DNA of 64,000 nt from Streptomyces sp. Edi2 (GTDB lineage Bacteria; Actinomycetota; Actinomycetes; Streptomycetales; Streptomycetaceae): contig NZ_JBEJGX010000003.1 of the NCBI RefSeq assembly GCF_040253635.1, positions 310,001-374,000 of the forward strand, written 5' to 3'. The notes beneath the pieces were generated by a model. It was not told the origin of the DNA, did no database searches, and worked only from the letters and a program-made list of their open reading frames with translations. The position numbers were made by a program, and so were the translations under genes. Shown piece after piece: positions 37,238 to 53,368 of this stretch. The first letter of the stretch is position 1; each line of letters starts with the position of its first letter.

Positions 37238-37264
37238 TTGAGCGGGAATTGAGCCGCAATTGAG
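37238..37264. promoter_or_regulatory. Three TTGAG direct repeats at 11-bp period (SARP-like)
   Basis: TTGAG starts at 37238, 37249 and 37260. With their two following bases these are heptamers separated by four bases, the arrangement recognised by SARP-type activators. They lie 80 bases before the ATP-grasp start and between it and the divergent FemAB-like gene. Two of the three are retained at the paralogous promoter at 52256-52282. Confidence 0.6.
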
Positions 37265-37343
37265 TCACGCGGGAGATCGGGGTGAAACGGTGATTTCTGC
37301 GGGCCGAGATGTCCCGTCACCATCGAGCACGAGTGGAGCCTTC

Positions 37344-38729
37344 ATGTCGGCGGAACGGGTCACAGCCCAGTACAACGAGGAATTCCACACACCGGACAGC
37401 GAGTTGCCCTCGGTCGCCCGGTACGTCAAGGATTTCCCGACGCTCGCACCGTGGAATGTCGAGTTCTTGGCCAGGCCCCTCTTCGTGGCCGAGCGTGAGA
37501 TTCGCGAGTTTGCCGATGACCTGCGGCACCTCATCGACATGCTCTTCTCTCTGCCGGACCGGATGTTCGGCGGCGATCTGGAGGCATTCCGGTCGGTGCT
37601 GGGAATCAGCGACGACCGTTGGGAAGCGATTCGGCGGTTCGGTGACCTGCTGCCGCCCCATTACGGCCGGGCCGACATGTACCACGACGGGACCTCGTTC
37701 AAGCTCCTTGAGTTCAATCTGGGAAGCGAGGCGGGCGGCTGGGGATTCGCGGGGGAGATCTCCCGCGCGGCGATGGAGGTCGACGCCTTCGCTGGCTTCG
37801 CGCGCCGGAACCGGCTTGGTTACGTACATCCCGTCCGCGCCGCGGTGGAGGCCCTGCGCCGCTTCGGCGCCCGGGTGGCACCCGGCCGTGAGCCGGTGGT
37901 GGCCCTGCTGGAGTGGCGTGGCGGTCTGAAAGACTACGGCGAGCACTGGGCCAACTTCCAGTCCGCACTGCGCTGGGCGGGCCTCGACATCCTGGTGGCC
38001 GAGGTCTCCGACGTGCACGAACGCGAGGGGGCGCTTTACCTCGGGGACACGAAGATCGACGTGGTCTACCGCACCTTCGTCCCGGACCAGATCGCCGAGG
38101 AACCTGACGGCTGGGACCTGGTCGCACCGCTGCTGCGTGCGCACGGGGCCGGCGGGACGCTGCTCTGGACCCCCCTGTCCAGCAACATGTTCGCCAACAA
38201 GTCCTGTATGGCGCTGCTTTCCGATGCGGCGCGGCGGCGCGATCTCAGCGAGGACGAGTGCCGGCTCGTCGACCGGGTGTTGCCCTGGACCCGCCTGATC
38301 AACACCGAAACGCTCAAGACCGACACCGACCTCGTCGACGAATGCCTGGAGCGGCGCGAGCAGTTGATCCTGAAGGTCAACGCACGCGGCGGCGGAGTCG
38401 GCGCTGTCGTGGGCTGGGAGACGGACGACGCCACGTGGCGGCGGGCTCTGGAGGACTCGGCCGCGGAGGGATGTGTCGTACAGCAGAGAGTGGTACCGCG
38501 GTCTGAGTTCGTGGTGGACCCGGTGACCGGGGAAACCGAGGAGTGGCAGGCGGTCTATGGCATGTTCTACACGCCGCAGGGTTGCGCGGGAACGTTCGCC
38601 AAGGCGGTGCCGGCCGGTGCGAGCAGCATCATCTCCGTCGGGCCGCCCGCGAACGCGCGCATCGCGGCCGTATTTCATCAGAGCGAGCTGCCCGTGTGGG
38701 GCGAAGTGCCCGCCGACACAGCGAAGTAA
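37344..38729 (+). CDS. Circularly permuted-type ATP-grasp ligase
   Basis: A 461-residue protein. The ATG at 37344 (MSAERVTAQYNEEFHTPDSE) follows TGGAG. Marks: MYHDGTSFKLLEFNLGSEAG (nucleotide/metal loop of glutathionylspermidine-synthase-like ATP-grasps), VALLEWRGGLKDYG, LWTPLSSNMFANKSCMALLS, and QLILKVNARGGGVGAVVGWE near the C-terminus. The fold activates a carboxylate as acyl phosphate and joins it to an amine. The substrate is unknown; a peptide or amino-acid conjugate is likely in this cluster. A gutted second copy lies at 51996-52176 and an MFS copy is directly downstream. Confidence 0.8.
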   Translation: MSAERVTAQYNEEFHTPDSELPSVARYVKDFPTLAPWNVEFLARPLFVAEREIREFADDLRHLIDMLFSLPDRMFGGDLEAFRSVLGISDDRWEAIRRFGDLLPPHYGRADMYHDGTSFKLLEFNLGSEAGGWGFAGEISRAAMEVDAFAGFARRNRLGYVHPVRAAVEALRRFGARVAPGREPVVALLEWRGGLKDYGEHWANFQSALRWAGLDILVAEVSDVHEREGALYLGDTKIDVVYRTFVPDQIAEEPDGWDLVAPLLRAHGAGGTLLWTPLSSNMFANKSCMALLSDAARRRDLSEDECRLVDRVLPWTRLINTETLKTDTDLVDECLERREQLILKVNARGGGVGAVVGWETDDATWRRALEDSAAEGCVVQQRVVPRSEFVVDPVTGETEEWQAVYGMFYTPQGCAGTFAKAVPAGASSIISVGPPANARIAAVFHQSELPVWGEVPADTAK

Positions 38730-38739
38730 AGAGACGTCA

Positions 38740-39686
38740 TTGCCGCGGAACTCCCCCACCCCCTCGACGTGGCGGCAGATTCAGACGGCCTGGGGTCTGC
38801 CGGACCTCGCGGGGAAAGGCCGGTTCGTCGCGGCCAATCTGATCGGCAGTCTGGGAAACGGGCTGGTGGGGGCGTTCACCGTCGTCTTCCTCGTGAAGAC
38901 GACGTCGCTGTCACTGGTAGCCGTCGGCGCCGCGCTGACCGCCGGCCAGCTGCTTGTTCTGCCCGTTCCGTTCTTTATCGGGCCCCTGTTGGACAGATAC
39001 GGTCCGCGCACTGTGGTCGCTGTGGGTAACTGGATTTCGGTGGTCGGTTTCATCGGTTTCCTGTTCTCGCACGCGGCCTGGCAGATCGTGCTGTGGCAGC
39101 GGTGCTGCTCGTCGTCTACGCGGTGAACTACCTCGAAGTCGGCGCCTGGATCGTCGGCGTGCTCGTCGCGCTGAACGCGGCCATGGTCGCGCTGCTCCAG
39201 ACGCTCGCCAGCCGGTGGATCGAAGTCCGCAGGCCGGTGACGGTGCTGGTGCTGGCCCTGCTGTTCAACGCGGCCGCGTTCGTCGTCTTCGGCACGCTGC
39301 TCGTGCTGCCCGGCTGGGCGATGATCGCCGGGCTGCTGATCGCGATGGTGCTGTACACCGCGGCCGAGATCCTCAGCTCGCCGCCGACCAGCGAACTGAG
39401 CGTGGTGATGGCTCCCGAGCATCTGAGGGGCCGCTATCTGGGCGTCTACCAGATGTCCTGGTCGGTCGGCGGCGCCGTCGCCCCGGCGCTGCTCACAGCG
39501 CTGTTGGCGGGCGGTGCGGCGCTGCCCTGGGTGTTCCTCACCGCGATCAGCGTGCTGGCCGTACCGCTCGTGCTCGGACTGGACCGGGAGCCCGCGCCCA
39601 CGAGTGAGGCCGACACGGTGTCGGCCTCGTCGACTTCGTCTCGTCCGACGACGTCACCACCCGGGCAGGGCGGACAAGCCCATTGA
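38740..39686 (+). pseudogene. MFS transporter copy 1, internally deleted and frameshifted
   Basis: Starts at TTG 38740. Residues 1-119 match residues 2-120 of the intact copy at 50646-51986 (PSTWRQIQTAWGLPDLAGKG onward). After LWQ at about 39097 the reading breaks and stops at 39126. The match resumes in another frame at 39093-39590 (VLLVVYAVNYLEVGAWIVGV onward). About 433 bases of the intact gene are missing, so six or so helices are lost and the frame is shifted. The tail after PTSEA differs (DTVSASSTSS). It cannot function as a transporter. It lies 10 bases after the ATP-grasp gene, as in the duplicate locus. Confidence 0.9.
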
Positions 39687-39753
39687 TCGATGTCCCTGTC
39701 GTCGACCGCCTGACTGCCGAATTGCTTGATCAGAGTTGCGTGGGTGCTCACAG

Positions 39754-42225
39754 ATGCAGAAATCCAACGAGAAGGCGAACAAGAAGGCGTCTGCATGCGA
39801 GACGTGTGGGGAGCGCATACAACGCGTCGAGGGCAAGAAGTCGACACACAACCGCTATTGCTCGAATGCCTGCCGGCAACGCGCTTACCGGCGCCGCGTC
39901 AAGGACGGCACACCTCTGGCCGGCGCCAACGACGCGACTCAACTGAGCAGTTTCATCGGCCGCGAGCACGACCTCGTCGAATTGCGTCGCATTCTCCGTA
40001 CCACCAGGCTCCTCACCGTGACCGGACCGCCCGGCGTCGGTAAGTCCCGGCTCGCGACGGAACTCGCGAAGAAGGAACAGCGCGTCGGCCACCGCAACAC
40101 CGTGTTCATCGATCTCCGCACTCCGGAAATGGCCGGTTCCGATCCCCGGCGGGCCGTCGCGGCCCTTGAGGCGGCCATTGAGGACCAGATCGCGCCGACG
40201 ATCCGGCGCACGGCCTGTCGCGCCGATGAACAGCGCGTCCTGCTCGACAACTGCGAGCACGTACTGGAGACAAGCGGCGCGGCGATTGTCGACCTGCTGT
40301 TCCGATTCCCGGGACTACGCGTGATCGCCACCAGCCGGGAGCCGTGGCGCATCTCCGGTGAGGCCGTCTACCGACTCCCCGGACTCTCCCTGCCCGGCGC
40401 CGCCTCCGTCGAGTCGCCGGAGAGCTACCTACGGGCGGACGCTGTACGGCTTTTCGTCGAGCGGAGCAGCGCGGTCAACCACGAGTTCCGGCTGAACGAG
40501 GAGAACTCGGAGGACGTCAGAGCTGTCTGCACCGCACTGGACGGCATCCCGCTGGCTCTCGAACTCGCAGCCCAGCTCGCCCGCGCGCTCCCCGTGGCCG
40601 AGATCAGGGAGCGCCTCAAGGAACCGCTGTCCCTGCTGAATCAAGGCTGGCGGACCGCCGACCCCCGACACCGCAGCTGGCGTGCGGCGTTACGGTGGAG
40701 CTACGACCACCTCAGCGCCGATGAACAGCGACTGTTCCGCCGTCTGTCGCTGCTGCCCGGCATCAACAGTGTCGAGGCGGCGACGGTGGCGTACGGCGGC
40801 GATCCCGCCGACGCCGAGACGGTCCCCGACCTGCTGATCAGCCTAGAGGCGAAGTCGCTGGTTGTCGTCCGCACGCGCGGACCGCACCGGCCCTCCGGTT
40901 ACCAGGTGCCGAACTCCGTCGGCAGCCTCGGCCGACACCACCTGACCGCCTCCGGAGAGGAGGAGGGAGTGCTGAACCGGCTGGCGGACTGGACGGCGGC
41001 CCGCGCGAGAACGCTGAACGACGAACTGGTGCTGTCCCCTGGGGCGGTGTACCAGTTGTCCGACGAGCGCGACATCATCCGCCGTCTATTGTCGTGGCTG
41101 GCTACCACCGACGACGAGAGGCAGCTCTCCTTGTCCTGGGCGCTCGCCGCCGCAGAGCTGGCGTCCGGTGAGAACGTGGGCGATGTCCTGGAGAGAATCC
41201 AGCACACGCTGGCGGTCACCGAGACCTCCTCCGCACGCCGCCACCACGCGCTGGCGGGAGCGCTCACGCTTGCCTGCTGGTATGGGCACGGTCGGCAGGC
41301 CATGAATCTCGTCGGGAAGACCGTGGCCGTCGCGCGCCGCTCCGGTGACGACGTACAACTGGCCCGGGCCGCGCTGCTGTCGAGCCTTGCCAACGAGATG
41401 TACGGCGACCGTGAGGCCGCGTATCGCGACCTCGATGTGGCTCTGGGCGTCGCGAGACGTGGTGCGGAGGAGGTCCCGCTCGCCGTCTGCCGGGCGCATC
41501 TGGCCCGGCACCTGCTGCACCGCGGCCGCTGCGGCCTGGCCGCTGTGCTGCTGGAGAAGACCCTTCCCGTGTTGCGGGCGTCGGCACCGCCGGAACACCT
41601 CAGCGCCGCCCTGATCACCGCTGGTGCCCTCGCGCTGGAGAACGACGACCTGCCCAAGGCCGAGGGGTTCTTCCAGGAGGCCCTGGACTCCGCGTTCCGG
41701 CCCGGTGCCTACGACGGGATTCTCGGGCTTGCCCTCTGCGCGGCGCGGAGCCATGACTTCGAGCGCGTGCTCAAGCTCATGACCACCACTGAGGGCAGGC
41801 CCTCCACGGTGCTGCGCTTCTTCCCGGCCTGGCGTAAGGAGCTCGTCGAGGCCTACGGTGCCGCCACGCGCATCTTGTCGAAGGGACGGGTCGTCGCGGC
41901 ACTGGCGTCGGCCCGCGGTCTCGGCCTCCGGCAGAGTGTCGTGCTGACCCGCGCCGACGCCGTTCCCTCCCCGCCGACCGGGGACGACGACCTGCTGACG
42001 GCGCGTGAGTGGGAGGTGCTTCAGTTGGTGATGGAAGGACTCGCCAACTCGGAGATAGCCCATCGGATGCACCTCTCCGTGCGGACGGTGGAAACGCACA
42101 TCCGCAACATCCGGTCCGTCCTGCAACTGCGCTCCCGCGCGCACATGGCCGCCTGGGCCGCCCGCCACCACCCCGAACTCGTTCGCCGACGTCAACAAGA
42201 CCGCCCACCTGGGATCGCGGTATGA
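39754..42225 (+). CDS. Zinc-knuckle / ATPase / LuxR-HTH regulator of the island
   Basis: An 823-residue protein starting MQKSNEKANKKASACETCGE. Same order as the gene at 9657: Cys cluster (CETCGERI, then RYCSNACRQRAYRRR), ATPase (TVTGPPGVGKSRLATELAKK, Walker B VLLDNCEHV), helical repeats, and LuxR HTH (LTAREWEVLQLVMEGLANSE, then LSVRTVETHIRNIRSVLQLR). A TTA codon at 40690-40692 implies bldA control. It lies just before hpgT-hmaS-hmo and is the only pathway-type regulator in the island, so it probably activates these genes. An interrupted palindrome at 42372-42409 between it and hpgT is a possible target. Confidence 0.88.
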   Translation: MQKSNEKANKKASACETCGERIQRVEGKKSTHNRYCSNACRQRAYRRRVKDGTPLAGANDATQLSSFIGREHDLVELRRILRTTRLLTVTGPPGVGKSRLATELAKKEQRVGHRNTVFIDLRTPEMAGSDPRRAVAALEAAIEDQIAPTIRRTACRADEQRVLLDNCEHVLETSGAAIVDLLFRFPGLRVIATSREPWRISGEAVYRLPGLSLPGAASVESPESYLRADAVRLFVERSSAVNHEFRLNEENSEDVRAVCTALDGIPLALELAAQLARALPVAEIRERLKEPLSLLNQGWRTADPRHRSWRAALRWSYDHLSADEQRLFRRLSLLPGINSVEAATVAYGGDPADAETVPDLLISLEAKSLVVVRTRGPHRPSGYQVPNSVGSLGRHHLTASGEEEGVLNRLADWTAARARTLNDELVLSPGAVYQLSDERDIIRRLLSWLATTDDERQLSLSWALAAAELASGENVGDVLERIQHTLAVTETSSARRHHALAGALTLACWYGHGRQAMNLVGKTVAVARRSGDDVQLARAALLSSLANEMYGDREAAYRDLDVALGVARRGAEEVPLAVCRAHLARHLLHRGRCGLAAVLLEKTLPVLRASAPPEHLSAALITAGALALENDDLPKAEGFFQEALDSAFRPGAYDGILGLALCAARSHDFERVLKLMTTTEGRPSTVLRFFPAWRKELVEAYGAATRILSKGRVVAALASARGLGLRQSVVLTRADAVPSPPTGDDDLLTAREWEVLQLVMEGLANSEIAHRMHLSVRTVETHIRNIRSVLQLRSRAHMAAWAARHHPELVRRRQQDRPPGIAV

Positions 42226-42371
42226 CGCGAGTGGAGTCTCCGAGACGGTCCGCGCGTCGGGATCTGGCAGCGGTGGACAGCTGCGAGTGCTTCCGACCGC
42301 AGCGCGGGCCGCGCCGCCAGGGATCGCCTCCTGGCCATTGACCGCCCCTCCCGGAACAGCGTGCTCCCCGC

Positions 42372-42409
42372 GTTACGACACGGCCGGGGCCACCGCCCGC
42401 TCTCGTAAC
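42372..42409. promoter_or_regulatory. Interrupted palindrome upstream of hpgT
   Basis: GTTACGA (42372-42378) is mirrored by TCGTAAC (42403-42409), flanked by C- and G-runs. It lies 50 bases before the hpgT start and after the regulator gene. It may be an operator for a dimeric LuxR-type protein. Confidence 0.4.
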
Positions 42410-42458
42410 GGGGGCGATCACCGGTCCCCCGGGAGCGAGCAGCGTCGAGAGTGACGGC

Positions 42459-43763
42459 ATGGAACTCGCGATGGCGGAATTGACCCGCGCGCTACAAGAC
42501 CCCCTGCTCGACGCGATGAACTTCCTCAACGAGGTCGCCGAGCGGTTCCCCGACGCCATCTCCTTCGCGGCGGGACGGCCGAACGAGCGATTCGTCACCG
42601 CCGACGACACCGCGAACGACCTGCGTGCGTTCCGCACCTACCTGACGGCGCACTCGACCCGGCCCGAGCATGAAGTCATCAGAGCCCTGTTCTCGTACGG
42701 GCCGGCCAAGGGCATCATCAACGACCTCGTCTGCCGGTACCTGCACGTCGACGAGGGCATCGAGACCGTTCCCGAAGCGGTCGTCGTGACCGTCGGCGCG
42801 CAGGAGGCGATGGTGCTGGTCCTGCGCGCGCTGTGCCGCGACGCCGCCGACGTCGCGCTGGCGGTTGCACCGACGTACGCGGGTTTCACAGGAGCGGCCA
42901 GCGTGGTCGGTATGCCCGTTCTCCCTGTTTCCTCGGGTGACGACGGAGTCGACCTCGACGATCTGGAGGCCGTTCTCGCCACGGCCCGCGCGGCCGGTCT
43001 TCGGCCTCGCTGCCTCTATGTCATCCCCGACTTCGCCAATCCCACCGGGATGTGCCTGCCGATCGCCGAGCGGCGTCGGCTGCTCGAGGCCGCCGAACGC
43101 AACCGGCTGCTGATCGTCGAGGACAACCCGTACGGCATCTACGCAGGTCACGGCGAGCGGCTCCCCACCCTCAAGTCCCTCGACGAGGGCGGCCAGGTCG
43201 TCTACATCGGTTCCTTCGCCAAGTCGGTGATGCCGGGCGCCAGGGTCGGGTATGTGGTCGCCGATCAGGCGGTGACCTCGGGCGGGCGCAGGACCGGCCT
43301 GCTGGCCGACGAACTCGGCAAGATCAAGAGCATGATCACCCTGAACACATCCCCGGTGAGCCAAGCGGTCGTCGCCGGTCGTCTCCTGGCCCACGACTTC
43401 AGCCTCGTCCGAGCCAATGAGCGGGTGACCGCCACATACCGGGACAACCTGGACCGGCTGCTGCGCGGGCTGCGAGTACGGTTCGGCGGCGACGGCGCGC
43501 AGGCCGTGCACTGGACCAGGCCGGTCGGCGGCTTCTTCGTCATGCTGCACGTTCCGTTCCGGGCGGACGAGGCCTTGCTGGAACACTCGGCTAGTCGTCA
43601 CCAGGTGCTCTGGACACCGATGAGCCAGTTCTACCCCGGCTCCGATGCGGGCGCCCGCAGCCTGCGCCTGTCGTGCAGCGCGCTGCGGCCCCAGGACATC
43701 GAACCCGGCCTGGACCGGCTCGCGGCACTTGTGGCCGAGCAGAGCTCAGTGGTCGCGTCCTGA
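42459..43763 (+). CDS. hpgT: 4-hydroxyphenylglycine aminotransferase-like (HpgT)
   Basis: A 434-residue fold-type I PLP enzyme. LQDPLLDAMNFLNEVAERFP with DAISFAAGRPNERF is typical of HpgT. YVIPDFANPTGMCLPIAERR holds the cofactor-contacting Asn/Asp loop, and the PLP lysine is in GSFAKSVMPGARVGYV. In glycopeptide-type pathways HpgT transaminates 4-hydroxyphenylglyoxylate to L-4-hydroxyphenylglycine. Position next to hmaS and hmo supports this. The start is ATG 42459 or the in-frame ATG 42471. It is followed after 137 bases by hmaS. Confidence 0.88.
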   Translation: MELAMAELTRALQDPLLDAMNFLNEVAERFPDAISFAAGRPNERFVTADDTANDLRAFRTYLTAHSTRPEHEVIRALFSYGPAKGIINDLVCRYLHVDEGIETVPEAVVVTVGAQEAMVLVLRALCRDAADVALAVAPTYAGFTGAASVVGMPVLPVSSGDDGVDLDDLEAVLATARAAGLRPRCLYVIPDFANPTGMCLPIAERRRLLEAAERNRLLIVEDNPYGIYAGHGERLPTLKSLDEGGQVVYIGSFAKSVMPGARVGYVVADQAVTSGGRRTGLLADELGKIKSMITLNTSPVSQAVVAGRLLAHDFSLVRANERVTATYRDNLDRLLRGLRVRFGGDGAQAVHWTRPVGGFFVMLHVPFRADEALLEHSASRHQVLWTPMSQFYPGSDAGARSLRLSCSALRPQDIEPGLDRLAALVAEQSSVVAS

Positions 43764-43900
43764 CGCCGACGCCGGCCCCGGACGGGGCGGTGGATCTCGC
43801 GGACGACTGCCCAGCATCCGTAACAGCGGCTTCTGCGGATCCGGTCGACTCCTGGTCCGCACAGCATGGACGTACTGAGCTGACACGAGGAGAGAACACC

Positions 43901-44980
43901 GTGATGCCTGTGCTGAAAGATCTGAGTGTTGACCATGTCCGGTTCGCCGTCGTGGACCTCGACACCGCGACCGATGTCTGGGTGAAGCGTTACGGCATGA
44001 GTGTGTACGCCCGCTCCGCCGACTCGGCGTCCAGCGCGGGTGTGGCCACCGCGGCGGTAGGGACAGCGGAGATCAGGCTGGTGCTCACTGCCGCCGACGG
44101 AGCGGACCACCCGGCCGCGGCGTATGTGGCACTGCACGGCGACGGAGTGTCCGACATCGCACTCCGCACCTCCGACGCGGCAGCGGCCTTTCGTACAGCC
44201 GTCCGACGCGGCGCGCAGCCGGTGTCGCCCCCGGCCGACCACGACGGGATCATCTGTGCGACGATCTCCGGCTTCGGTGATGTGGTGCATACCTTCGTCG
44301 AGCGTCCGAACGCCCTGGACTCACGTACCCTGCCGGGACTCGTTCCGTCCGGCGAACCAGTCAAACCCGGCGCGGACAACCACTTGGACACGGTTGACCA
44401 CTTCGCGGTCTGCGTCGAGGCCGGCCAACTGCGCCCGACGGTGGACTACTACAAGCAAGTCCTCGACTTCCGCGAGGTGTTCACCGAACGCATCATCGTC
44501 GGCGAGCAGGCGATGGACTCCATTGCCATACAGAGCCGCTCCGGTGAGGTCACCTTCACGGTCATCGAACCCGACCTGACACGGCAGCCCGGCCAGATCG
44601 ACGCGTTCATCAAGAACCATGGCGGCGCCGGGGTGCAGCACATCGCCTTCAGTACCCGCGACATCACCCGGGATGTGGAAAGGCTGCGCGACACCGGCGT
44701 CCGGTTCCTCGAAACACCCGGGAGTTACTACGACATGCTGCCCGAGCGGCTGACACCCACCCGGCACGGTGTCGAGCAGCTGAGGGCTCTCGACATCCTC
44801 GCCGACGAGGACCCCGACGGCCAGCTCCTGCAGATCTTCACCGGCTCCGTCCACCCGCGCAACACCCTGTTCTTCGAGCTCGTCGAGCGGCTCGGCTCAC
44901 GGACCTTCGGCAGCGCCAACATCAAGGCACTGTACACAGCGGTCGAACGGCAGCGCGCCGCGGACGACGACCGCCGGTGA
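43901..44980 (+). CDS. hmaS: 4-hydroxymandelate synthase
   Basis: A 359-residue Fe(II) dioxygenase of the HPPD superfamily. GAGGAG at 43887-43892 points to GTG 43901 or the next codon ATG 43904. Motifs: HGDGVSDIALRTSDAAAAFR, TVDHFAVCVEAGQLRPTVDY (first His ligand), GGAGVQHIAFSTRDI (second His), and NTLFFELVERLGSRTFGSAN (Glu ligand). The pattern is closer to HmaS of glycopeptide producers than to HPPD, though these families differ only subtly. It converts 4-hydroxyphenylpyruvate to 4-hydroxymandelate, the first step to hydroxyphenylglycine. It is followed by hmo. Confidence 0.87.
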   Translation: MMPVLKDLSVDHVRFAVVDLDTATDVWVKRYGMSVYARSADSASSAGVATAAVGTAEIRLVLTAADGADHPAAAYVALHGDGVSDIALRTSDAAAAFRTAVRRGAQPVSPPADHDGIICATISGFGDVVHTFVERPNALDSRTLPGLVPSGEPVKPGADNHLDTVDHFAVCVEAGQLRPTVDYYKQVLDFREVFTERIIVGEQAMDSIAIQSRSGEVTFTVIEPDLTRQPGQIDAFIKNHGGAGVQHIAFSTRDITRDVERLRDTGVRFLETPGSYYDMLPERLTPTRHGVEQLRALDILADEDPDGQLLQIFTGSVHPRNTLFFELVERLGSRTFGSANIKALYTAVERQRAADDDRR

Positions 44981-45095
44981 GGTCGGGCCCGCGCCACCCG
45001 ATTGGGCCACGGCGCGCAACGCACACCGACGGCCACGCCCCCACCGGGCCGCGAGGTCACCACCTGAGCAGGGCTGTACGAGAAAGAGTCCCCCA

Positions 45096-46211
45096 ATGAG
45101 CAGCACCGGCGCCGGACCGGGCGTCACTCCACCCTGGACCCGCGTGACGGAGGCCGAGCAAGCGGCCCGCGACCGGCTTCCGGCGGACATCTGGGACTTC
45201 GTCGCGGGAGGCAGCGGGGACGAGTCCGTCCTGACGGGCAATCTGACCGAGCTGAACCGAATCACCGTGGTACCGCGTGTGCTGAACGGGCAACCGGGCG
45301 GTGTGCGGCTGGCGCGGCAACTCGGGCGCAGCGAGACCCGGATGCCGGTGGTGATTGCCCCAATGGCCTACCAACGACTCGTCCACCCACAGGGTGAACT
45401 CGCGGTGGCCGAGGCTGCGCGCGCGGAAGGCATTCCGTACGTTGTGCCGATGCTCTCCAGCCACCCGCTGGAGAAGATCGCGGACGTGGGCGCGACACTG
45501 TGGTTCCAGCTCTACTGGCTGCGCGACCGGGGAGTGCTGCTCGACCTGGTGCGCCGGGCCGAACAGGCCGGCTGCCGGGCCATCGTCATCACGGTGGACG
45601 TCCCCGTCATGGCCCGACGGCCGCGCGACCTGCGCAACGGATTCGCCCTGCCTGCCGACGTCACCGCCGGCAACCTCGACGACACCGGCCCAACCACCCA
45701 CACCCGGGTGCCGGGCGCCTCAGCCGTGGCGACCCACTCCGCGGTCGCCTTCGATCCGGCGGCCTGCTGGTCCGACCTGGAGTGGCTGCGCGCCCAGACC
45801 GAACTGCCGTTGGTGGTCAAGGGGATTCTCGACCCCCGCGACGCCGTGCGGGCGGCCGAGCGTGGGGCCGACACGGTGGTCGTCTCTAACCACGGCGGCC
45901 GTCAGCTACCCGCGGCCGTGCCGAGCTGCGCCGCGCTGCCCCCGGTGGTCGAGAGACTGGCCGGCCGCTGTGAGGTCCTGCTGGACGGCGGCGTGCGCAC
46001 GGGAGCAGATGTCCTGCGTGCTCTGGCCCTGGGCGCCGACGGTGTGATGTACGGCCGTCCGGTGCTGTGGGGCCTCGCCGCGGACGGCGGGGCTGGTGTA
46101 CGCACCGTTCTCGGCCTCCTGCGCACCGAGACCGAAGAGGCCCTGCTGCTGTCCGGCTGCGCCGACCTCGCCGCCGTTCGTCAGCTGACGGTGGCGCGCA
46201 CCGTCGCGTAA
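45096..46211 (+). CDS. hmo: 4-hydroxymandelate oxidase
   Basis: A 371-residue FMN-dependent alpha-hydroxy-acid oxidase. PADIWDFVAGGSGDESVLTG, MPVVIAPMAYQRLVHPQGEL, LWFQLYWLRDRGVLLDLVRR, the active-site His in VVSNHGGRQLP, and VLLDGGVRTGADVLRALALG with the flavin-phosphate loop are all present. It should oxidise 4-hydroxymandelate to 4-hydroxyphenylglyoxylate, the substrate of HpgT. It is the last gene of the hpgT-hmaS-hmo series. No prephenate dehydrogenase was found in the window; that step may be supplied elsewhere. Confidence 0.88.
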   Translation: MSSTGAGPGVTPPWTRVTEAEQAARDRLPADIWDFVAGGSGDESVLTGNLTELNRITVVPRVLNGQPGGVRLARQLGRSETRMPVVIAPMAYQRLVHPQGELAVAEAARAEGIPYVVPMLSSHPLEKIADVGATLWFQLYWLRDRGVLLDLVRRAEQAGCRAIVITVDVPVMARRPRDLRNGFALPADVTAGNLDDTGPTTHTRVPGASAVATHSAVAFDPAACWSDLEWLRAQTELPLVVKGILDPRDAVRAAERGADTVVVSNHGGRQLPAAVPSCAALPPVVERLAGRCEVLLDGGVRTGADVLRALALGADGVMYGRPVLWGLAADGGAGVRTVLGLLRTETEEALLLSGCADLAAVRQLTVARTVA

Positions 46212-46409
46212 CGGTGTCTCACGCCGTTCGGGCGGATGGTCCTGTTCGCCGGGGCAGTGGCGTGCGGCGTCGCCGCGGACAAGGCCCGCTCTGGCCAGTT
46301 GAACAGACACGGCATCTGTAGTTCGTCAGGCGTGAGGCATCGCCGCTGGCCGACGTGGTGGATGGGGTGCCTGCGCGCACGGGTACGGCCACCGGCATCG
46401 TGATCTTGT

Positions 46410-46816: not shown

Positions 46817-47161
46817 ATAATTGTCACAGTTGACCTTCCTCGTGGACTTCGTCGGGCAGGTGGTCTCGGAGCTGTTCCAAGGTGCGAGCCGGTGATCCGG
46901 GCAGCGGTGTGACGGCGATGCGGTGAAGGTCCAGGAGCCGTGCCCGTCTTGGAACTGGTTGGAGAGGTTGGTTCGGGTGACGCCCAGCAGTTGAGCGAGG
47001 TGGGTGCTGGTGATCGCTTTGCGTCGACGTAAGAGTGCTGCCAGGAGACGGTGGTCGTGGTCCAGGCTGCTGGTTTGCGGGTGGAGGTAACTGCGCGGAC
47101 GGTGGAAGCGTCGTTAGAAGGCCGCCTCGGCCAGGGCGGGCCTTGACCCAAGGCCGGGTAG
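46817..47161 (-). other. Transposase debris with a helix-turn-helix fragment
   Basis: About 340 bases. On the minus strand, 47080-46920 can be read as LDHDHRLLAALLRRRKAITS, then HLAQLLGVTRTNLSNQFQDG, like the C-terminal HTH of some transposases (ISAzo13-like is a guess). Frames are broken on both sides. Confidence 0.4.
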
Positions 47162-48180
47162 TTAACGTATTTGCGCAGGTGGCAAGGGCTTTGAGGGGGT
47201 TCTCGGGCTGGCGTAGGTCCCGGGTCCGGTCTTGGAGATGAGTCCTTGTGCGGCCCATCTGTCGAGTTGCCGGTACATCGTGCCGAGGGTGATGTTGCGG
47301 AGGTGGCGGGCGAGGTCACGGGTGTGCCAGTGGCGGTCTGGGTCTGCGTGGAGGAGGTCCACGACCTGTCCTCTGCGCCGGTCTGCGAGCGGGGTGTACC
47401 GGTCGTCGTGGGAGACGGTGGGGAGGTCGGGCTCGGGGTCGAGGATGGCGACGTCGAGGCTCGTGACCGGGCTGCTGGCGCTGGGGCGGCCATCGTCCTG
47501 GCGTTCGGCATATCGGGAGACCGGGGACCTGACCTTTCGGGTGCTGATACGAGGACGTCTGGGCGGGAGGAGTCCTGCCAGGATGCGGTTGCCGATGACA
47601 CCCGCAATGCCGGTGGTGACGCCAGCGGGCCTGATGATGCCGGCGGCCTGGACGACGAGGTCACGGGCTGACTGGATCGTGATGGTGAAGCCGCAGCGGT
47701 CCGGATCGGTGCCGGGCCTGGACTCGGCGGCCTCCACCATCACCGTCCGTAATGCCTGGTAGAGGGCGAGGAGGGCCCACATCTCCTGCTCGACGCCGAC
47801 GGGGTCGCCCGAGCGCAGTATCCGACCCTCCATGATCGTGTGGCGAAGCGCGTAGTACGCCGACTCGTGTTCCCACCTTTGGTGGTAGAGGGCGACGAGG
47901 GTCTCAGCGGGATAGCGGCGGGCGTCGGTCAGTGTCGTGACGAGCCGGTAGGAGGCGGTGAACGAGGTGCCGTCTTCGCAGGTCACGGTGATCTGCGCTT
48001 CCACGACGCGGACCGGTACGGTGCCGGTGACGGACAGGTAGGAGCCGTCCGCGAGGCGGGCCAGGACCGGGTCGGACCCGACGGGCTCTGTGCTGGGTAT
48101 AAGGGACGGTTCTCCTGTCGTGCCCTCTCAGGCTAACCCCGCAGAACGGGATGTCTCACCCAAGGCTGACAGAGAGGGCT
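47162..48180 (-). pseudogene. IS4-family transposase, 5' truncated
   Basis: The minus-strand frame of 280 codons (48004-47162) starts inside the protein: TVTCEDGTSFTASYRLVTTL and YHQRWEHESAYYALRHTIME are the C-terminal catalytic-Glu (YREK-like) region, followed by the helical tail ending with HWHTRDLARHLRNITLGTMY. The matching frame can be followed upstream to about 48100. The N-terminal part with the first two Asp residues is missing. The element end (CTCTCTGTCAGCC side) lies near 48180 and abuts the IS3 fragment. Confidence 0.7.
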
Positions 48181-48196
48181 TGCCGCCCGCGGCGCG

Positions 48197-49150
48197 CTAG
48201 ATGTGTTGTCCGGAGAGGTTGGTGACGCGGCTGGCTGGGGTGTGGCCGCTGATTCCGGTGTGGGGTCGGTGGTAGTTGTACCAGTCGAGCCAGTCGGGAA
48301 ATGCGGCTTGGCGTTCGGCGTCTGAGGTGTAGGGCTGGTGGTAGGCCCATTCGTCGAGCAGGGTGCGGTGGAAGCGTTCGACCTTGCCGTTGGTCTGTGG
48401 GCGCCAGGGTCGTGTCCAGCGCGGTTGTATGCCCAGGTCGCGGCAGGTCTGGCGCCAGGTGTTCTTGCTGTAGGCCCAGGCGTTGTCGGTCAGCACACGC
48501 TCGACGGTGATCCCCCGGGCGGCGAACCAGGCCATGGCCCGCGTGAGGAAGCTCGCGCAGGTGGCCGCCTTCTCGTCGGGGAGGTCTTCGGTGTAGGCGA
48601 GTCGGGTGTGGTCGTCCAGAGCGGTATGGAGGTAGGCGAGTCCGGCGCCGGTGCGGTTCTTGCGGCCGGCGGCCCGGCCGAGGGCTTTGTGGCCGCCGCC
48701 GTCGGGGATGCGGCCGAGTTTCTTGACGTCGATGTGGACCAGTTCGCCGGGGCGGGCGCGTTCGTAGCGGCGGACGGGTTCACCGGTGGCCCGGTCGGTG
48801 GCGGCCAGCGGCGGCAGGCCGTGGCGCCTGAGGATGCGGTGGGCGGTGGAAGCTGCGACACCGGCACGGACGGCCAGCCGCAGCGGGCCGATCCGGTGCT
48901 CGCGTCGCATGCGGACGACCTCGTCCTCCACCGCTGCGGACGTGCGGTGAGGCTGGTGGTGGGGCCTGCTGGAGCGGTCCTTCATCCCCGCATGACCATG
49001 ACGTTGGTAGCGGCCGGCCCAGCGTGCCGCTGTCGTGTGGCTGACCTGGAACCGTTCCGCGGCCCGGCGCAACGGCCAGCCGTCATCGACGACGCACCGG
49101 GCCAGACGCAGCCTGCCGGTCGGCGTCAGCGGGGCGTTACGGTGGATCAC
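48197..49150 (-). CDS. IS481-family transposase
   Basis: A 317-residue protein starting at GTG 49150 (VIHRNAPLTPTGRLRLARCV). HTH domain: RRAAERFQVSHTTAARWAGR. DDE core: VHIDVKKLGRIPDGGGHKAL (first Asp), RVLTDNAWAYSKN (second Asp), and TNGKVERFHRTLLDEWAYHQ (Glu). All catalytic residues are present, so it may be active. Its stop codon TAG lies within the target-site duplication outside the left inverted repeat, which means the last codon depends on the insertion site. Confidence 0.9.
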   Translation of the reverse strand: MIHRNAPLTPTGRLRLARCVVDDGWPLRRAAERFQVSHTTAARWAGRYQRHGHAGMKDRSSRPHHQPHRTSAAVEDEVVRMRREHRIGPLRLAVRAGVAASTAHRILRRHGLPPLAATDRATGEPVRRYERARPGELVHIDVKKLGRIPDGGGHKALGRAAGRKNRTGAGLAYLHTALDDHTRLAYTEDLPDEKAATCASFLTRAMAWFAARGITVERVLTDNAWAYSKNTWRQTCRDLGIQPRWTRPWRPQTNGKVERFHRTLLDEWAYHQPYTSDAERQAAFPDWLDWYNYHRPHTGISGHTPASRVTNLSGQHI

Positions 49151-49266
49151 GAGGGCCTCCTGGCATCGGTGCAGACTTCGCAATCCACACCGAAACCAGA
49201 AGGCCCTCCCTCTTTCAAGCACCCTGAGAGGCATGTCGCCTGTCACCAACGTCCCGGGACAACACA
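48202..49266 (-). mobile_element. Intact IS481-family insertion sequence with 6-bp target duplication
   Basis: A 1065-bp element. The inverted repeats at 48202-48226 and 49242-49266 share 22 of 25 positions (TGTGTTGTCC outermost). It is flanked by the direct repeat GCTAGA at 48196-48201 and 49267-49272, a target-site duplication. It carries one complete transposase gene. It is inserted in the N-terminus of an IS3-family orfA: GCGCTC on one side and CGCGCCGCGGGC on the other would join to VAL-x-RAAGGK. The intact ends and perfect duplication indicate a recent insertion. Confidence 0.88.
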
Positions 49267-49324
49267 GCTAGAGCGCGACGGCGTCCTTCCTGAACTCATC
49301 CGGATACGGAGACTTGCGTCCCAT
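49267..49324 (-). pseudogene. IS3-family orfA fragment interrupted by IS481
   Basis: From ATG 49324 (with GGGAGGA upstream) the minus strand reads MGRKSPYPDEFRKDAVAL, the usual start of an IS3-family OrfA. It then meets the IS481 element. On the far side (48201-48178) it continues as RAAGGK before meeting the IS4 end. An amber codon replaces the expected Tyr. Confidence 0.7.
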
Positions 49325-49454
49325 CTGGACATCCTCCCTGGACCCTCGAGATCCATTGTCAGGGTGTCCACTCCAAAGGATCAGCCTCATACTGGCCTTG
49401 GACCTTGACCAAACACATAGGGGCACCCCCCGCGTCTGGTGACCAGAACGACAA

Positions 49455-49524
49455 GAGCCGTATGACGAGAGATCGTCACGTACGGATCTGTGAGGGCTGA
49501 GGGGTGCGAATCCCCTCGGCTACT
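49455..49524 (+). ncRNA. Group II intron 3' end (domains V and VI)
   Basis: GAGCCGTATGACGAGAG (49455-49471) with ATCGTCACGTACGGATC (49472-49488) forms the domain V hairpin, with the expected GAGCCGTATG start and CGTACGG arm. GGCTGAGGGG (49495-49504) with TCCCCTCGGC (49511-49520) forms a domain VI-like hairpin, followed by TACTC at the 3' end. No intron-encoded reverse transcriptase precedes it, so this is a truncated copy. The upstream 130 bases may be domain IV. Confidence 0.65.
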
Positions 49525-49564
49525 CGGCGATCAAGCCCAGTGGCCGGGGCCGCCTCGGTCACCG

Positions 49565-50488
49565 TCATGGCCTGCACCACTCCAGCACCGCCATTGCGCT
49601 GTGCATCTTGTTCTCGGCCTGTTCGAAGGCGATGCCGGCGGGCCCGTCCAAGACATCCGCAGTGACCTCCTCGCCGCGGTGCGCGGGCAGGTCGTGCATG
49701 AAGACGGCCTTGGGGCTGTCCTCCCACAGCGCCGCCGTCACCTGGAACGGCGCGAACACGGCCCGCCAGCCGGGGTCGGACTTGCTGGTGCCGGTGGTCT
49801 GCCAGCGGGTGGTGTAGATGACGTCGAGGTCGCCCGGCAGGTCCGCCACGTCGTGCCGCTCCCGGAAGAGTGACCCGTGGCGGGCGGCCTGAGCGGCGGC
49901 CCGCTCGCGGTAGGCGGGCGCGAGGCCGTACCCGGGCGGGGTGCGCAACTCCAGCTCGGTGCCGGGGAACCGGGTCAGGGCGAGGGCGAGCGCGGAGGCG
50001 GTGTTGTTGCCCTCGCCGACGTACAGCACCCGCAGGCCGTCGATCCCGCCGAACCGGCGGCGCATGGTGGTCAGATCGGTGAGCGCCTGGGTGGGGTGCT
50101 CGTCGGCGCTCATCGCGTTGACGACCGCCATCCGGTCCTGGGCCGCCCAGACTCGCATCTCCGCAGGGTCGCCCGAGGTCCGCGCGACCAGCACGTCGAG
50201 CATGCGGGACATTACCCGGCCGGTGTCCTCATTGGTCTCGCCCGTGTTGAGCTGGAGGTCGCCCGGCCCGTACGCGACGATGCGGCCGCCCAGGCGCAGC
50301 GCGCCGCTGGAGAACGCGGTGCGGGTGCGGGTGGAGGTCTTGCTGAAGTAGATGCCGACGATATCCCCGTCGAGCGGGGCCACCGGGCCAGCGGTGCCGG
50401 CCGAGAACTCGGCGCCGCGTGCGACGAGGGCGTGCAGGTCGGCGTCGGTGAGGTCGTCGATCGAGATCAGATGCCGTACGTGTGCCAC
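49565..50488 (-). CDS. Ornithine carbamoyltransferase-like enzyme
   Basis: A 307-residue protein. GTG 50488 has AGGAGGA 5 bases upstream. IYFSKTSTRTRTAFSSGALR is the carbamoyl-phosphate loop (STRTR), HPTQALTDL is the second signature, and VFMHDLPAHRGEEVTADVLD is the substrate loop. Ornithine transcarbamylases have HCLP there; here the Cys is replaced by Asp. In viomycin and capreomycin pathways a homologue carbamoylates diaminopropionate. Diaminopropionate genes sbnA/sbnB lie in this cluster, so formation of 3-ureidoalanine is a reasonable inference. It lies downstream of the intact MFS copy, separated by a hairpin. Confidence 0.8.
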   Translation of the reverse strand: MAHVRHLISIDDLTDADLHALVARGAEFSAGTAGPVAPLDGDIVGIYFSKTSTRTRTAFSSGALRLGGRIVAYGPGDLQLNTGETNEDTGRVMSRMLDVLVARTSGDPAEMRVWAAQDRMAVVNAMSADEHPTQALTDLTTMRRRFGGIDGLRVLYVGEGNNTASALALALTRFPGTELELRTPPGYGLAPAYRERAAAQAARHGSLFRERHDVADLPGDLDVIYTTRWQTTGTSKSDPGWRAVFAPFQVTAALWEDSPKAVFMHDLPAHRGEEVTADVLDGPAGIAFEQAENKMHSAMAVLEWCRP

Positions 50489-50560
50489 GGGTTCCTCCTG
50501 GCGGGACGGGGGTGGGCGGGGTGGCGGGAGCCACAGGTCATGGCCGCTCTTCGTCGGTGA

Positions 50561-50595
50561 CGACCGGCGCCCGGTGTGCTGCCGGGCGCCGGTCG
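50561..50595. terminator. Perfect 14-bp hairpin between MFS copy 2 and the carbamoyltransferase gene
   Basis: CGACCGGCGCCCGG (50561-50574) pairs with 50582-50595 across a 7-base loop. A related hairpin, with the same TGTGCTG loop in the other orientation, lies after the third MFS fragment (53369-53409), so the terminator was duplicated with the gene. Confidence 0.75.
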
Positions 50596-50645
50596 GCCTC
50601 GAGCGCGGTGCGCGCTCAACAGGCGCGGGCTGGCTCGTCGTCGAA

Positions 50646-51986
50646 CTACTCCACGGGGGCGACATCCCCGGCCGGTGCGGCCTCGCTCGTGGGCTCGGGC
50701 TCCCGGTCCAGTCCGAGCACGAGCGGTACGGCCAGCACGCTGATCGCGGTGAGGAACACCCAGGGCAGCGCCGCACCGCCCGCCAACAGCGCTGTGAGCA
50801 GCGCCGGGGCGACGGCGCCGCCGACCGACCAGGACATCTGGTAGACGCCCAGATAGCGGCCCCTCAGATGCTCGGGAGCCATCACCACGCTCAGTTCGCT
50901 GGTCGGCGGCGAGCTGAGGATCTCGGCCGCGGTGTACAGCACCATCGCGATCAGCAGCCCGGCGATCATCGCCCAGCCGGGCAGCACGAGCAGCGTGCCG
51001 AAGACGACGAACGCGGCCGCGTTGAACAGCAGGGCCAGCACCAGCACCGTCACCGGCCTGCGGACTTCGATCCACCGGCTGGCGAGCGTCTGGAGCAGCG
51101 CGACCATGGCCGCGTTCAGCGCGACGAGCACGCCGACGATCCAGGCGCCGACATCGAGGTAGTTCACCGCGTAGACGACGAGCAGCACCGTGATCACCGT
51201 GGAGGCGAAGACGAAGGAGATGTTCGTCGCGACCAGCCGCAGATACCGAGTGTCCCTCAGCACGGTGCGATAGCCGCCCGAGGGTGGTCTGGTGGGTTCG
51301 CCCACCTCCTGCTCCGGCTCGGAGGACTTCGGCTCAGCAGGCCCGGCGCCGGCCGCCTCGCTCGTGTCCGCGCCCCGCAAGGTGATCACGAGCCAGCCTG
51401 CGACGGCGAAGGTGACCACGTTGACCACCATGACCGCCCGCAGCCCGGCGACGGTTCCGATGCTCAGGGCCACCGCGGACACAGCGCCGCCGAAACCGAC
51501 GCCGACATTGCGCAGGCCACGGACGAAGCCGAACCAACGGGCCCGCTGCACACCTTGGGCGACCAGCACGACGAGCGGACTGCTGCCCATCCAGAAGGCG
51601 GTGGAACCCACTTGAACCGCGAACTGCCACAGCACGATCTGCCAGGCCGCGTGCGAGAACAGGAAACCGATGAAACCGACCACCGAAATCCAGTTACCCA
51701 CAGCGACCACAGTGCGCGGACCGTATCTGTCCAACAGGGGCCCGATAAAGAACGGAACGGGCAGAACAAGCAGCTGGCCGGCGGTCAGCGCGGCGCCGAC
51801 GGCTACCAGTGACAGCGACGTCGTCTTCACGAAGAAGACGACGATGAACGCCCCCACCAGCCCGTTTCCCAGACTGTCGATCAGATTGGCCGCGACGAAC
51901 CGGCCTTTCCCCGCGAGGTCCGGCAGACCCCAGGCCGTCTGAATCCGCCGCCACGTCGAAGGCGCGGGGAAATTCTGCGGCATCAT
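50646..51986 (-). CDS. MFS transporter copy 2 (intact)
   Basis: A 446-residue, twelve-helix protein starting MMPQNFPAPSTWRRIQTAWG. Helix 1-4 region: NGLVGAFIVVFFVKTTSLSL, LLVLPVPFFIGPLLDRYGPR (MFS motif A region) and TVVAVGNWISVVGFIGFLFS. The central loop is acidic (EPKSSEPEQEVGEP). The second half includes VLVALNAAMVALLQTLASRW and LRGRYLGVYQMSWSVGGAVA. It resembles drug or peptide exporters (MFS, enterobactin-exporter-like). It is the complete form of the gene broken at 38740-39686. It likely exports the cluster product. It follows the gutted ATP-grasp copy. Confidence 0.85.
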   Translation of the reverse strand: MMPQNFPAPSTWRRIQTAWGLPDLAGKGRFVAANLIDSLGNGLVGAFIVVFFVKTTSLSLVAVGAALTAGQLLVLPVPFFIGPLLDRYGPRTVVAVGNWISVVGFIGFLFSHAAWQIVLWQFAVQVGSTAFWMGSSPLVVLVAQGVQRARWFGFVRGLRNVGVGFGGAVSAVALSIGTVAGLRAVMVVNVVTFAVAGWLVITLRGADTSEAAGAGPAEPKSSEPEQEVGEPTRPPSGGYRTVLRDTRYLRLVATNISFVFASTVITVLLVVYAVNYLDVGAWIVGVLVALNAAMVALLQTLASRWIEVRRPVTVLVLALLFNAAAFVVFGTLLVLPGWAMIAGLLIAMVLYTAAEILSSPPTSELSVVMAPEHLRGRYLGVYQMSWSVGGAVAPALLTALLAGGAALPWVFLTAISVLAVPLVLGLDREPEPTSEAAPAGDVAPVE

Positions 51987-51995
51987 GACCTCTCT

Positions 51996-52176
51996 TTACT
52001 TCGCCGCGTGGGCGGGCAATTCGCCCGCCTCGGCAACGAAGAGGGGCTCCGCCAAATGCTCGCCATGCCAAGGTGCGAGCGTCGGGAAGTCCTTGACGTG
52101 CTGGGCGGCCGCGGGCAAGTCACTGCACGGCGTGCGGAACTCCTCATTGTACTGGGCTGTTACCGGTTGCTGACAT
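51996..52176 (-). pseudogene. ATP-grasp copy 2, gutted remnant
   Basis: From ATG 52176 a 2-base deletion shifts the frame after a few codons, then the sequence reads VTAQYNEEFRTPCSDLPAAA and HVKDFPTLAPWHGEHLAEPL, matching residues 6-55 of the gene at 37344. It then jumps to the C-terminal ELPAHAAK (ELPVWGEVPADTAK in copy 1) and stops at 51996. About 1.2 kb of the gene is missing. It is 9 bases before the intact MFS copy, so the gene order of copy 1 is kept. Confidence 0.85.
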
Positions 52177-52255
52177 GAGGCGTCCCCTCCTGCTCGATGG
52201 CGGCTGGGCCTCTCGGCCCGCAGGGGTAACTGTTCCACCCTGCCATCCGGCGCGA

Positions 52256-52282
52256 CTCAATTGCGGCTCAATTCTCAATCAA
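52256..52282. promoter_or_regulatory. TTGAG direct repeats at 11-bp period, copy 2
   Basis: On the minus strand TTGAG occurs at 52260-52256 and 52271-52267, and the related TTGAT at 52282-52278. The spacing is exactly 11 bases and the central TTGAGCCGCAATTGAG is identical to the one at 37249-37264. Upstream of the gutted ATP-grasp and MFS genes, so it may now drive the intact MFS copy. Confidence 0.6.
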
Positions 52283-53332: not shown

Positions 53333-53368
53333 GCCTGCCCGCGCCTGTCGAGCGCGCACCGCGCTCGA

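Follow-up and report, generated by a model that had tools for sequence, protein, structure and literature searches.

Genes and repeats at the locus

The window (the whole 64,000-nt stretch of DNA analysed) carries an ATP-grasp gene and an MFS exporter gene twice, in opposite orientations, between a resident FemAB-like transferase gene and a resident NRPS (Table 1). The first-pass annotation had already described such a repeat, at the same place. Self-BLAST of the window resolves it into three blocks of 79.6-99.4% identity: 37234-37493 against 52286-52029 (79.6%), 38699-39099 against 52026-51624 (95.8%) and 39100-39612 against 51190-50678 (99.4%, 510/513). Elsewhere in the strain genome there is no further DNA-level copy of the unit beyond short weak matches; a distant ATP-grasp homologue, with 41% amino acid identity, is found at C3:1834138-1835487.

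Table 1 Features of the repeat and its surroundings, in coordinates of the window
Feature	Position	Strand	Remarks
FemAB-like transferase gene, resident	35879..37027	-	Pfam PF04339 E 1.3e-4 (under cut-off); transcribed away from ATP-grasp copy 1
Copy 1, whole	37234-39612	+	ATP-grasp complete, MFS without 433 bp
SARP-like operator, copy 1	37238..37264	+	three TTGAG repeats, 11-bp period
ATP-grasp copy 1, complete	37344..38729	+	461 aa from conserved ATG; mechanical ORF start 37260
MFS copy 1, broken	38740..39612	+	without usual ATG; 433 bp missing between 39099 and 39100; 3' cut at 39612
Putative homogenised tract	38778..39612	+	differs from copy 2 at 6 positions; ATP-grasp 5' part, about 20%
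Odd palindrome, 23 bp	39606..39628		11-bp arms; at end point of copy 1
LuxR-type ATP-binding regulator gene	39736..42225	+	Pfam GerE and AAA
Hydroxyphenylglycine-type genes	42459..46211	+	aminotransferase, 4-HPPD-like, FMN-dependent oxidase
IS4-type transposase remnant	47137..48071	-	78.8% to annotated IS4 transposase L170
IS481 element	48197..49274	-	100% identical to second genome copy
Group II intron 3' end	49453..49528	+	Rfam RF00029, 55.7 bits
Carbamoyltransferase gene	49568..50488	-	OTC family, HDLP motif
MFS copy 2 end and 3' flank	50561..50648	-	common to copy 3 and relatives
MFS copy 2, complete	50649..51986	-	446 aa; 81.5-86.1% aa to 7 relatives
Copy 2, whole	52286-50678	-	MFS intact, ATP-grasp without about 1.2 kb
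ATP-grasp copy 2 remnant with promoter	51987..52286	-	2-bp loss near ATG, about 1.2 kb lost
SARP-like operator, copy 2	52256..52271	-	two perfect TTGAG repeats
Repeated-element fragment	52577..52849	+	90-93% to L167 and L169
IS21 istB 3' end and element end	52881..53067	+	
Copy 3: MFS 3' end and flank	53104..53412	+	resident remnant adjoining NRPS
NRPS, resident	53745..59717	-	two AMP-binding, one condensation, two carrier domains; transcribed towards copy 3

Each copy retains one complete gene and one damaged gene, in the way that had been described. The 433 bp missing from MFS copy 1 are present in copy 2 at 51191-51623, and their absence shifts the reading frame; the deletion junction is without microhomology. 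A 2-bp loss takes away the usual ATG of the same gene. In ATP-grasp copy 2, the ends around the 1.2-kb loss remain in frame, with an 80-residue open reading frame at 51996-52238, and a 2-bp loss lies no more than ten bases 3' of the ATG. Copy 3, which the first-pass annotation overlooked, matches the other two over 53104-53406 (self-BLAST), with 89% identity to the end of copy 2 and 94% to copy 1.

The protein encoded by ATP-grasp copy 1 matches 0 Pfam families at the curated cut-off, and the CP_ATPgrasp_1 cut-off is passed by one of the six ATP-grasp homologues scanned. Its AlphaFold model (pLDDT 88.1) has a predicted ATP-grasp fold of the glutathione synthetase type, the best PDB matches being glutathione and glutathionylspermidine synthetases (Foldseek E 3.3e-17, TM about 0.6). 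It thus resembles these circularly permuted ATP-grasp ligases in predicted fold, and some of its homologues give weak CP_ATPgrasp or GSP_synth matches, but sequence identity in the structural matches listed is 11-17%. Values of dN/dS are 0.23-0.41 for ATP-grasp copy 1 (0.21-0.68 for pairs of relatives) and 0.41-0.64 for MFS copy 2 (0.38-0.67 for pairs of relatives). The values of both genes fall inside those ranges and so speak neither for nor against relaxed selection.

Divergence along the repeat

The divergence between copies 1 and 2 is very uneven, a feature which escaped the first-pass annotation. In the 5' part 51/258 sites differ (19.8%; identity 80.2%), whereas in the MFS tract only 4/816 differ (0.5%), with a run of exact identity at 39138-39594, and the identity changes sharply near 38777. 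For these values the 5' part of copy 2 was aligned separately, and differences at 38110-38698 in the multiple alignment, where it is misplaced, were left out. The ratio of MFS to 5' divergence is 0.025 for copies 1 and 2, and 0.375-0.771 for the remaining 35 pairs of sequences (Fisher P 6e-29). A single simple duplication should give even divergence; the 20% and 0.5% found here, and the outlying ratio, argue against it.

In the 5' part, the 80.2% identity between copies 1 and 2 falls within the span of their identities to the copies of other species (77.9-85.3%). Over the first 45-48 residues, proteins of other organisms give the better match to both copies, with 87.5% and 88.9% identity, as against 75.6% between the two copies. 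In a tree of the MFS tract, copies 1 and 2 are sisters with support of 100/100. The best tree of the 5' part also joins them, with support of 39/0, and since the segment is short this sisterhood is neither supported nor formally rejected. A sharp change of identity next to a flank of apparently separate ancestry is the pattern of a gene-conversion tract.

Related clusters and the insert

Seven related clusters were compared (G684, G365, G600, G503, G548, G315 and S. angustmyceticus). Each has one intact FemAB/ATP-grasp/MFS unit, whose aligned frames are free of internal stops. The FemAB-like protein is 83-91% identical to that of the relatives and is divergent from the ATP-grasp gene in all seven. 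In five of them the MFS gene and the NRPS converge, at a junction which copy 3 matches; in G315 and G365 the MFS gene lies away from the NRPS.

Because the relatives have a single intact unit, with the MFS gene ending against the NRPS where copy 3 lies, the region 39.6-53.1 kb is an insert. It comprises the regulator and hydroxyphenylglycine genes, scraps of insertion sequences and group II intron, the carbamoyltransferase gene and copy 2. Scraps of mobile elements flank copy 2 on either side. One of them, the fragment at 52577..52849, is probably the 5' part of a group II intron: it gives no group II match itself (Rfam), and at the related locus L169 a match to group II D1-D4 occurs 2.1 kb further on, past an ISL3 element. 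A composite transposon was considered and rejected, since the left end has no matching insertion sequence; the IS21 end occurs only at the right and IS481 only inside. The left end (39605-39860) has no match in the plasmid collection.

No hydroxyphenylglycine genes are present in the fetched stretches of the seven relatives. As to a part for these genes in this cluster, the observations point both ways: in their substrate regions, the two adenylation domains of the NRPS share 93-97% identity with those of relatives whose cluster has no hydroxyphenylglycine genes beside it, yet three of these relatives (G503, G548 and G684) carry them at other genomic sites. Nucleotide matches to the hydroxyphenylglycine module are at most 72% (101/392 genomes of the genus at E<=1e-40, own included). 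The LuxR-type regulator has its best match, of 61% amino acid identity, in Actinacidiphila, near a 73% match to HpgT (among the 80 of 209 matches listed). The carbamoyltransferase gene has nucleotide identities of up to 85%, and the HDLP motif is found in all 14 of the near homologues examined.

A search with copy 2 DNA gave matches in 12/392 genomes of the genus (E<=1e-60, own included). No donor was found among the five of the 11 foreign matches that were followed (G684, G365, G600, G503 and G548); the other six are weaker, G623 at 80% and G469, G364, G307, G465 and G634 at 65-67%. Nor was a donor found in a partly overlapping set of 395 relatives (3/395 at E<=1e-150, own included), or in the protein database using MFS copy 2, where the best foreign protein is 89% identical (169 proteins, from 8000 scored candidates). 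An MFS gene joined to the carbamoyltransferase gene was not found in the seven fetched relatives, and no described cluster in the literature, among the matches listed, was recognised as matching this one.

SARP-like operators

The promoter repeats reported in the first-pass annotation are genuine. TTGAG pairs with an 11-bp period occur five times in 103.5 kb, counting both strands, whereas 30 mononucleotide shuffles average 0.27. Three belong to copies 1 and 2 (37238/37249 on the plus strand, 52271 on the minus strand), one precedes an SbnA-like gene, and one, at 81276, may be due to chance. At least two TTGAG repeats are kept before the ATP-grasp gene in all seven relatives, and repeats precede SbnA in all six whose fetched stretch held that promoter. 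A BTAD regulator is encoded just beyond the window, at C3:374844-376676 (E 5.7e-42).

SARP operators are described (PMC5930380, 2018) as heptameric direct repeats with 4-nt spacers. The heptamers here (TTGAGCC/TTGAGTC) have the corresponding 11-bp period, are conserved, and accompany a BTAD regulator in the cluster. These putative operator sequences differ from the PimR heptamer, CGGCAAG. Because the same SARP-like operator is kept in both copies, the surviving genes, ATP-grasp copy 1 and MFS copy 2, are probably still a co-regulated pair.

Proposed history of the locus

We hypothesise that the ancestral resident order was FemAB (-), ATP-grasp (+), MFS (+), NRPS (-), as in five of the relatives. 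The resident MFS gene would have been split by insertion of a mobile element, so that only its 3' end (copy 3) was left next to the NRPS. A segment with a foreign but related ATP-grasp/MFS unit (copy 2), the carbamoyltransferase gene, the regulator and the hydroxyphenylglycine module would then have come into the gap, facing the other way. The inverted copies may next have recombined, sequence of the copy 2 type overwriting the MFS part of copy 1 and 433 bp being lost, and ATP-grasp copy 2 would have lost its 1.2 kb. The outcome would be a working ATP-grasp gene of resident origin and a working exporter gene of the incoming type, with SARP operators of one kind in front of both. We put the probability of this history, in which a foreign homologous unit came to lie beside the resident one, followed by gene conversion of the MFS and complementary loss, at roughly 0.62. 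The present breakpoints do not stem from a single insertion, because copies 1 and 3 overlap.

It is worth adding that 173 bp of copy 3 are the basis for the direction of conversion. Within them copy 3 differs from copy 1 at 10 sites, with the relatives' state at seven, while two favour copy 1. As regards the merger, an old duplication since lost in all seven relatives would give the same picture.

A recent inverted duplication of the MFS part, with homologous recombination later bringing a foreign 5' part into one copy, would account equally well for the sharp change near 38777. It seems unlikely, as it leaves unexplained the 6% of sites at which copy 3, which occupies the resident position by the NRPS, differs from copies 1 and 2.

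The original interpretation was a plain inverted duplication of one operon in this lineage, followed by complementary loss. The second half of it stands: the deletions are reciprocal, and the surviving intact ATP-grasp and MFS genes lie in different copies. The inverted arrangement and the 99.5% identity of the MFS parts would also suit a plain duplication. We nevertheless regard this as distinctly improbable, given the distance between the 5' parts and their unsupported sisterhood, which would require later replacement of the 5' part in one copy. Furthermore, copy 3 is of a different type, and together with the relatives it reveals a resident MFS/NRPS junction split by the insert.

We give little credence to the idea that the reciprocal loss is one inversion isomer of an arrangement with one intact and one fully broken operon, their halves exchanged by crossover between the MFS 5' tracts. 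Near-identical inverted tracts do flank the 433-bp gap, and the anatomy implies that a crossover in 38778-39099 would unite the intact ATP-grasp gene with the gapless MFS gene, placing both damaged genes in the other operon. Against this, ATP-grasp copy 1 adjoins the FemAB gene as in all seven relatives, but that is expected of both isomers alike. Inversion of the 11 kb between the copies, as the first-pass annotation proposed, is possible in principle. That the inverted MFS tracts form an invertible switch, with a population mixing two expression states of the cluster by homologous recombination, is very doubtful; if true, the ATP-grasp and exporter genes would be in separate SARP-driven operons in one orientation and reunited ahead of the carbamoyltransferase gene in the other. 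The chance of an assembly artefact is negligible, despite the identical IS481 copies and several repeats close by: the window is part of a 9.1 Mb contig, and the many sites that differ between the copies mean that they are not collapsed or duplicated reads.

Relation to known processes

The locus is a clear and unusual case of known processes, and not a new kind of system. Homogenisation of homologous sequences within a cluster by internal recombination, and growth of clusters by merger of sub-clusters, are both described in PMC4256081 (2014), and the history proposed above resembles both. That account deals mainly with PKS/NRPS domains, whereas here an exporter gene is concerned, in inverted copies of apparently different ancestry and with reciprocal loss. 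Mutagenic joins, with capture or integration of DNA, are described for NHEJ repair in Streptomyces (PMC5869714, 2018), and the 433-bp gap of MFS copy 1, with its lack of junction microhomology, may be likened to them.

The case rests on three fragments and seven reference clusters, and concerns an antibiotic-type cluster of Streptomyces. It suggests that reciprocal loss in an inverted repeat need not imply duplication, and that the ancestry of each part of such a repeat needs its own assessment. A cluster of this kind may survive disruption of its exporter gene by acquiring a related unit, keeping one good gene from each and retaining a common operator.

Structure of the repeated unit

The ATP-grasp and MFS genes occur in the window, which spans G000:C3:310001-374000 in an assembly of 9.81 Mb, as two inverted copies. 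Comparing the window with itself confirmed the repeat where the first-pass annotation had placed it, and the open reading frames bear out the damage described there. In copy 1 the ATP-grasp frame is complete, while the MFS lacks 433 bp and is shifted in frame. In copy 2 the MFS is complete (446 aa), and only the two ends of the ATP-grasp gene are left, about 1.2 kb having gone with the frame kept. Alignment to relatives adds two losses of 2 bp each, one close to the ATG of the copy 2 ATP-grasp and the other removing the usual start codon of the copy 1 MFS. A third piece, copy 3, consists of the 3' part of the MFS gene with its downstream flank, and stands directly before the end of the convergent NRPS gene. 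Apart from short weak matches, no further DNA-level copy was found in the genome. A second, distant member of this ATP-grasp family (41% amino acid identity) is located at G000:C3:1834138-1835487 (own genome, same contig). Separately from these copies, the self-comparison gave degenerate internal repeats at 16813-16984 and 19976-20675.

Features of the cluster and insert (window positions unless prefixed G000:C3)
Feature	Position (strand)	Remark
Flavin reductase gene	34595-35317 (-)	Left edge of cluster; partial copy at G000:C3:395978-396223
Copy 1	37234-39612 (+)	
23-bp palindrome	39606-39628	Where copy 1 homology stops
LuxR-type regulator and three hydroxyphenylglycine-type genes	39736-46211	
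IS4 remnant		Inside insert
IS481	48197-49274	100% identical to G000:C3:714834-715911
Scrap		Inside insert; annotated IS3 in 2 of 6 records listed
Group II intron 3' end	49453-49528	
OTC-family (carbamoyltransferase) gene	49568-50488 (-)	Inside insert, followed by copy 2
Copy 2	52286-50678 (-)	MFS gene at 50649-51986
Repeated fragment, probably group II intron 5' part	52577-52849	
IS21 3' end		Element ends at about 53067
Copy 3	53104-53412 (+)	

Comparison with relatives

The ATP-grasp protein was used as a query against 394 family genomes and plasmids; 111 of the 394 genomes gave a match, at 84% or more in two besides its own. Using copy 2 DNA, 392 genus genomes and 395 relatives were queried. 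Seven close clusters, six genomic and one on an S. angustmyceticus plasmid, were fetched as stretches of 12.8-41.5 kb, and six weaker copy 2 DNA matches were left out. Each of the seven carries just one FemAB/ATP-grasp/MFS unit, with aligned frames free of internal stops. The MFS end abuts the NRPS in five (S. angustmyceticus and genomes G684, G600, G503 and G548) but not in G315 and G365. Copy 3 matches this MFS/NRPS junction, and the spacing between the matches to 53104-53412 and to 53559 onwards is 46 bp in G600 against 146 bp in the window. The regulator, the hydroxyphenylglycine genes, the IS481 transposase and a full carbamoyltransferase are encoded in none of the seven stretches, so what lies between copies 1 and 3 is, in comparison with them, an insert.

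The identical second copy of IS481 points to recent transposition. The IS21 end and copy 3 are separated by 36 bp. The intron 3' end and the probable 5' part, on the same strand, flank the OTC gene and the MFS and ATP-grasp genes of copy 2, the 3' part coming before these genes and the 5' part after them, an arrangement like that of a circle opened within an intron; Rfam did not confirm a group II intron on the 52577-52849 fragment itself. In the G315 stretch (about 15.9-17.3 kb) what follows the MFS looks, by eye, like a scrap of an IS110-type element and a group II intron containing a frame that resembles a reverse transcriptase. The 3' end of this intron is 83% identical to window 49435-49526, and introns thus recur at this cluster edge.

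Uneven divergence and proposed history

The two copies do not diverge evenly. Their ATP-grasp 5' parts differ at 51 of 258 sites and their MFS tracts (38779-39594, gap left out) at only 4 of 816 (Fisher P 6e-29), with a change point in identity near 38777. The ratio of MFS to 5' divergence is 0.025, as against 0.375 to 0.771 for the other 35 pairs of the nine sequences. The MFS tree makes copies 1 and 2 sisters with support of 100/100. In the 5' tree their end branches measure 0.16 (copy 1) and 0.14 (copy 2) and their common branch is unsupported (39/0); the best tree nevertheless joins the two copies, and sisterhood is compatible with the data. At the sites where the 5' parts differ, gap positions included, copy 1 has the relatives' consensus state (at least 6 of 7) at 18, copy 2 at 17 and neither at 3, the relatives varying at 15; neither therefore looks like a decayed offspring of the other. 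In its first 45-48 residues each copy is closer to proteins of other organisms (87.5% and 88.9%) than to the other copy (75.6%). Of 173 sites compared between copies 3 and 1, 10 are different, and the relatives' state is found in copy 3 at 7 of these and in copy 1 at 2 (the relatives vary at 1). Since copy 3 mostly keeps that state, two MFS lineages seem to meet here: copy 3 represents the resident lineage, and copies 1 and 2 the other.

The first-pass annotation had proposed duplication followed by complementary loss. That interpretation is partly supported: the reciprocal loss is present, but the 5' parts argue against derivation of either copy from the other. We hypothesise instead that mobile elements split the resident MFS, that a homologous unit of foreign origin came to lie next to the resident unit with its already split MFS, that the left MFS was later overwritten by copy-2-type sequence, and that each copy lost one gene. 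This would be the simplest account, the foreign origin of copy 2 being inferred from its divergence. No donor was found among the matches followed up from the copy 2 DNA searches of 392 genus genomes and 395 relatives, partly the same genomes, nor in a protein database queried with the copy 2 MFS. Alternatively, there may have been an old duplication that was lost again in all the relatives. For the foreign unit and later overwriting, the processes involved (IS insertion, uptake of a related segment, gene conversion and non-homologous loss) are already known; they are combined here in an unusual and well-documented way, which does not amount to a new type of system.

Gene identities

The ATP-grasp protein has no match of its own in Pfam or NCBIfam. 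Its predicted structure (pLDDT 88) is nearest to glutathione and glutathionylspermidine synthetases, and some ATP-grasp homologues give weak circularly permuted ATP-grasp matches. The exporter is an MFS_1 protein. Among the homologues of its copy 2 form are orfF from Actinoplanes sp. N902-109 and an S. hygroscopicus membrane transport protein, names that also occur in rapamycin cluster flanks. The gene upstream of the ATP-grasp is FemAB-like, under the Pfam cut-off. The OTC-family protein has the motif HDLP, as do its 14 nearest fetched homologues (14/14), where the family usually has HCLP, and its substrate may thus be other than ornithine. Further along the cluster is a PLP-dependent, SbnA-like gene, and beyond the window a BTAD regulator; in the related S. 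angustmyceticus plasmid cluster the annotation names SbnA/SbnB and deazaguanine genes. The partial copy of the flavin reductase gene (first 82 residues, 96% identical) lies about 51 kb rightward in the same orientation, so that direct repeats enclose the whole cluster.

The NRPS has two adenylation domains. The substrate region of domain 1 is 93-96% identical to six relatives (the G365 stretch excludes this domain), and that of domain 2 is 95-97% identical to all seven, in whose fetched stretches no hydroxyphenylglycine genes occur. A whole-genome DNA search with the module (E ≤ 1e-40), covering the relatives other than G315 and S. angustmyceticus, gave no match in G365 and G600, which speaks against a link between module and NRPS. 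On the other hand, G503, G548 and G684 do have hydroxyphenylglycine-type genes elsewhere in the genome, and the module may yet serve the neighbouring NRPS.

Probable shared control and possible inversion

TTGAG repeats with an 11-bp period precede both ATP-grasp copies and the SbnA-like gene (61741, minus strand). They are conserved before the ATP-grasp in all seven relatives, and before SbnA in all six whose stretch includes the promoter. These direct repeats share the layout of SARP operators (PMC5930380), and the cluster also has the BTAD regulator. In the PimR study two repeats are the minimum for binding, which is the number of perfect repeats before the copy 2 ATP-grasp. As both copies keep SARP-type repeats, the copy 2 exporter is likely still switched on together with the copy 1 ATP-grasp.

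The near-identical inverted MFS tracts, with the hydroxyphenylglycine genes in the segment between them, could also recombine. If a crossover took place on the left side of the 433-bp gap, one operon would combine the intact ATP-grasp with an ungapped MFS, and the other would be left with the two damaged genes. The reciprocal pattern of loss could therefore be one isomer of an inversion.
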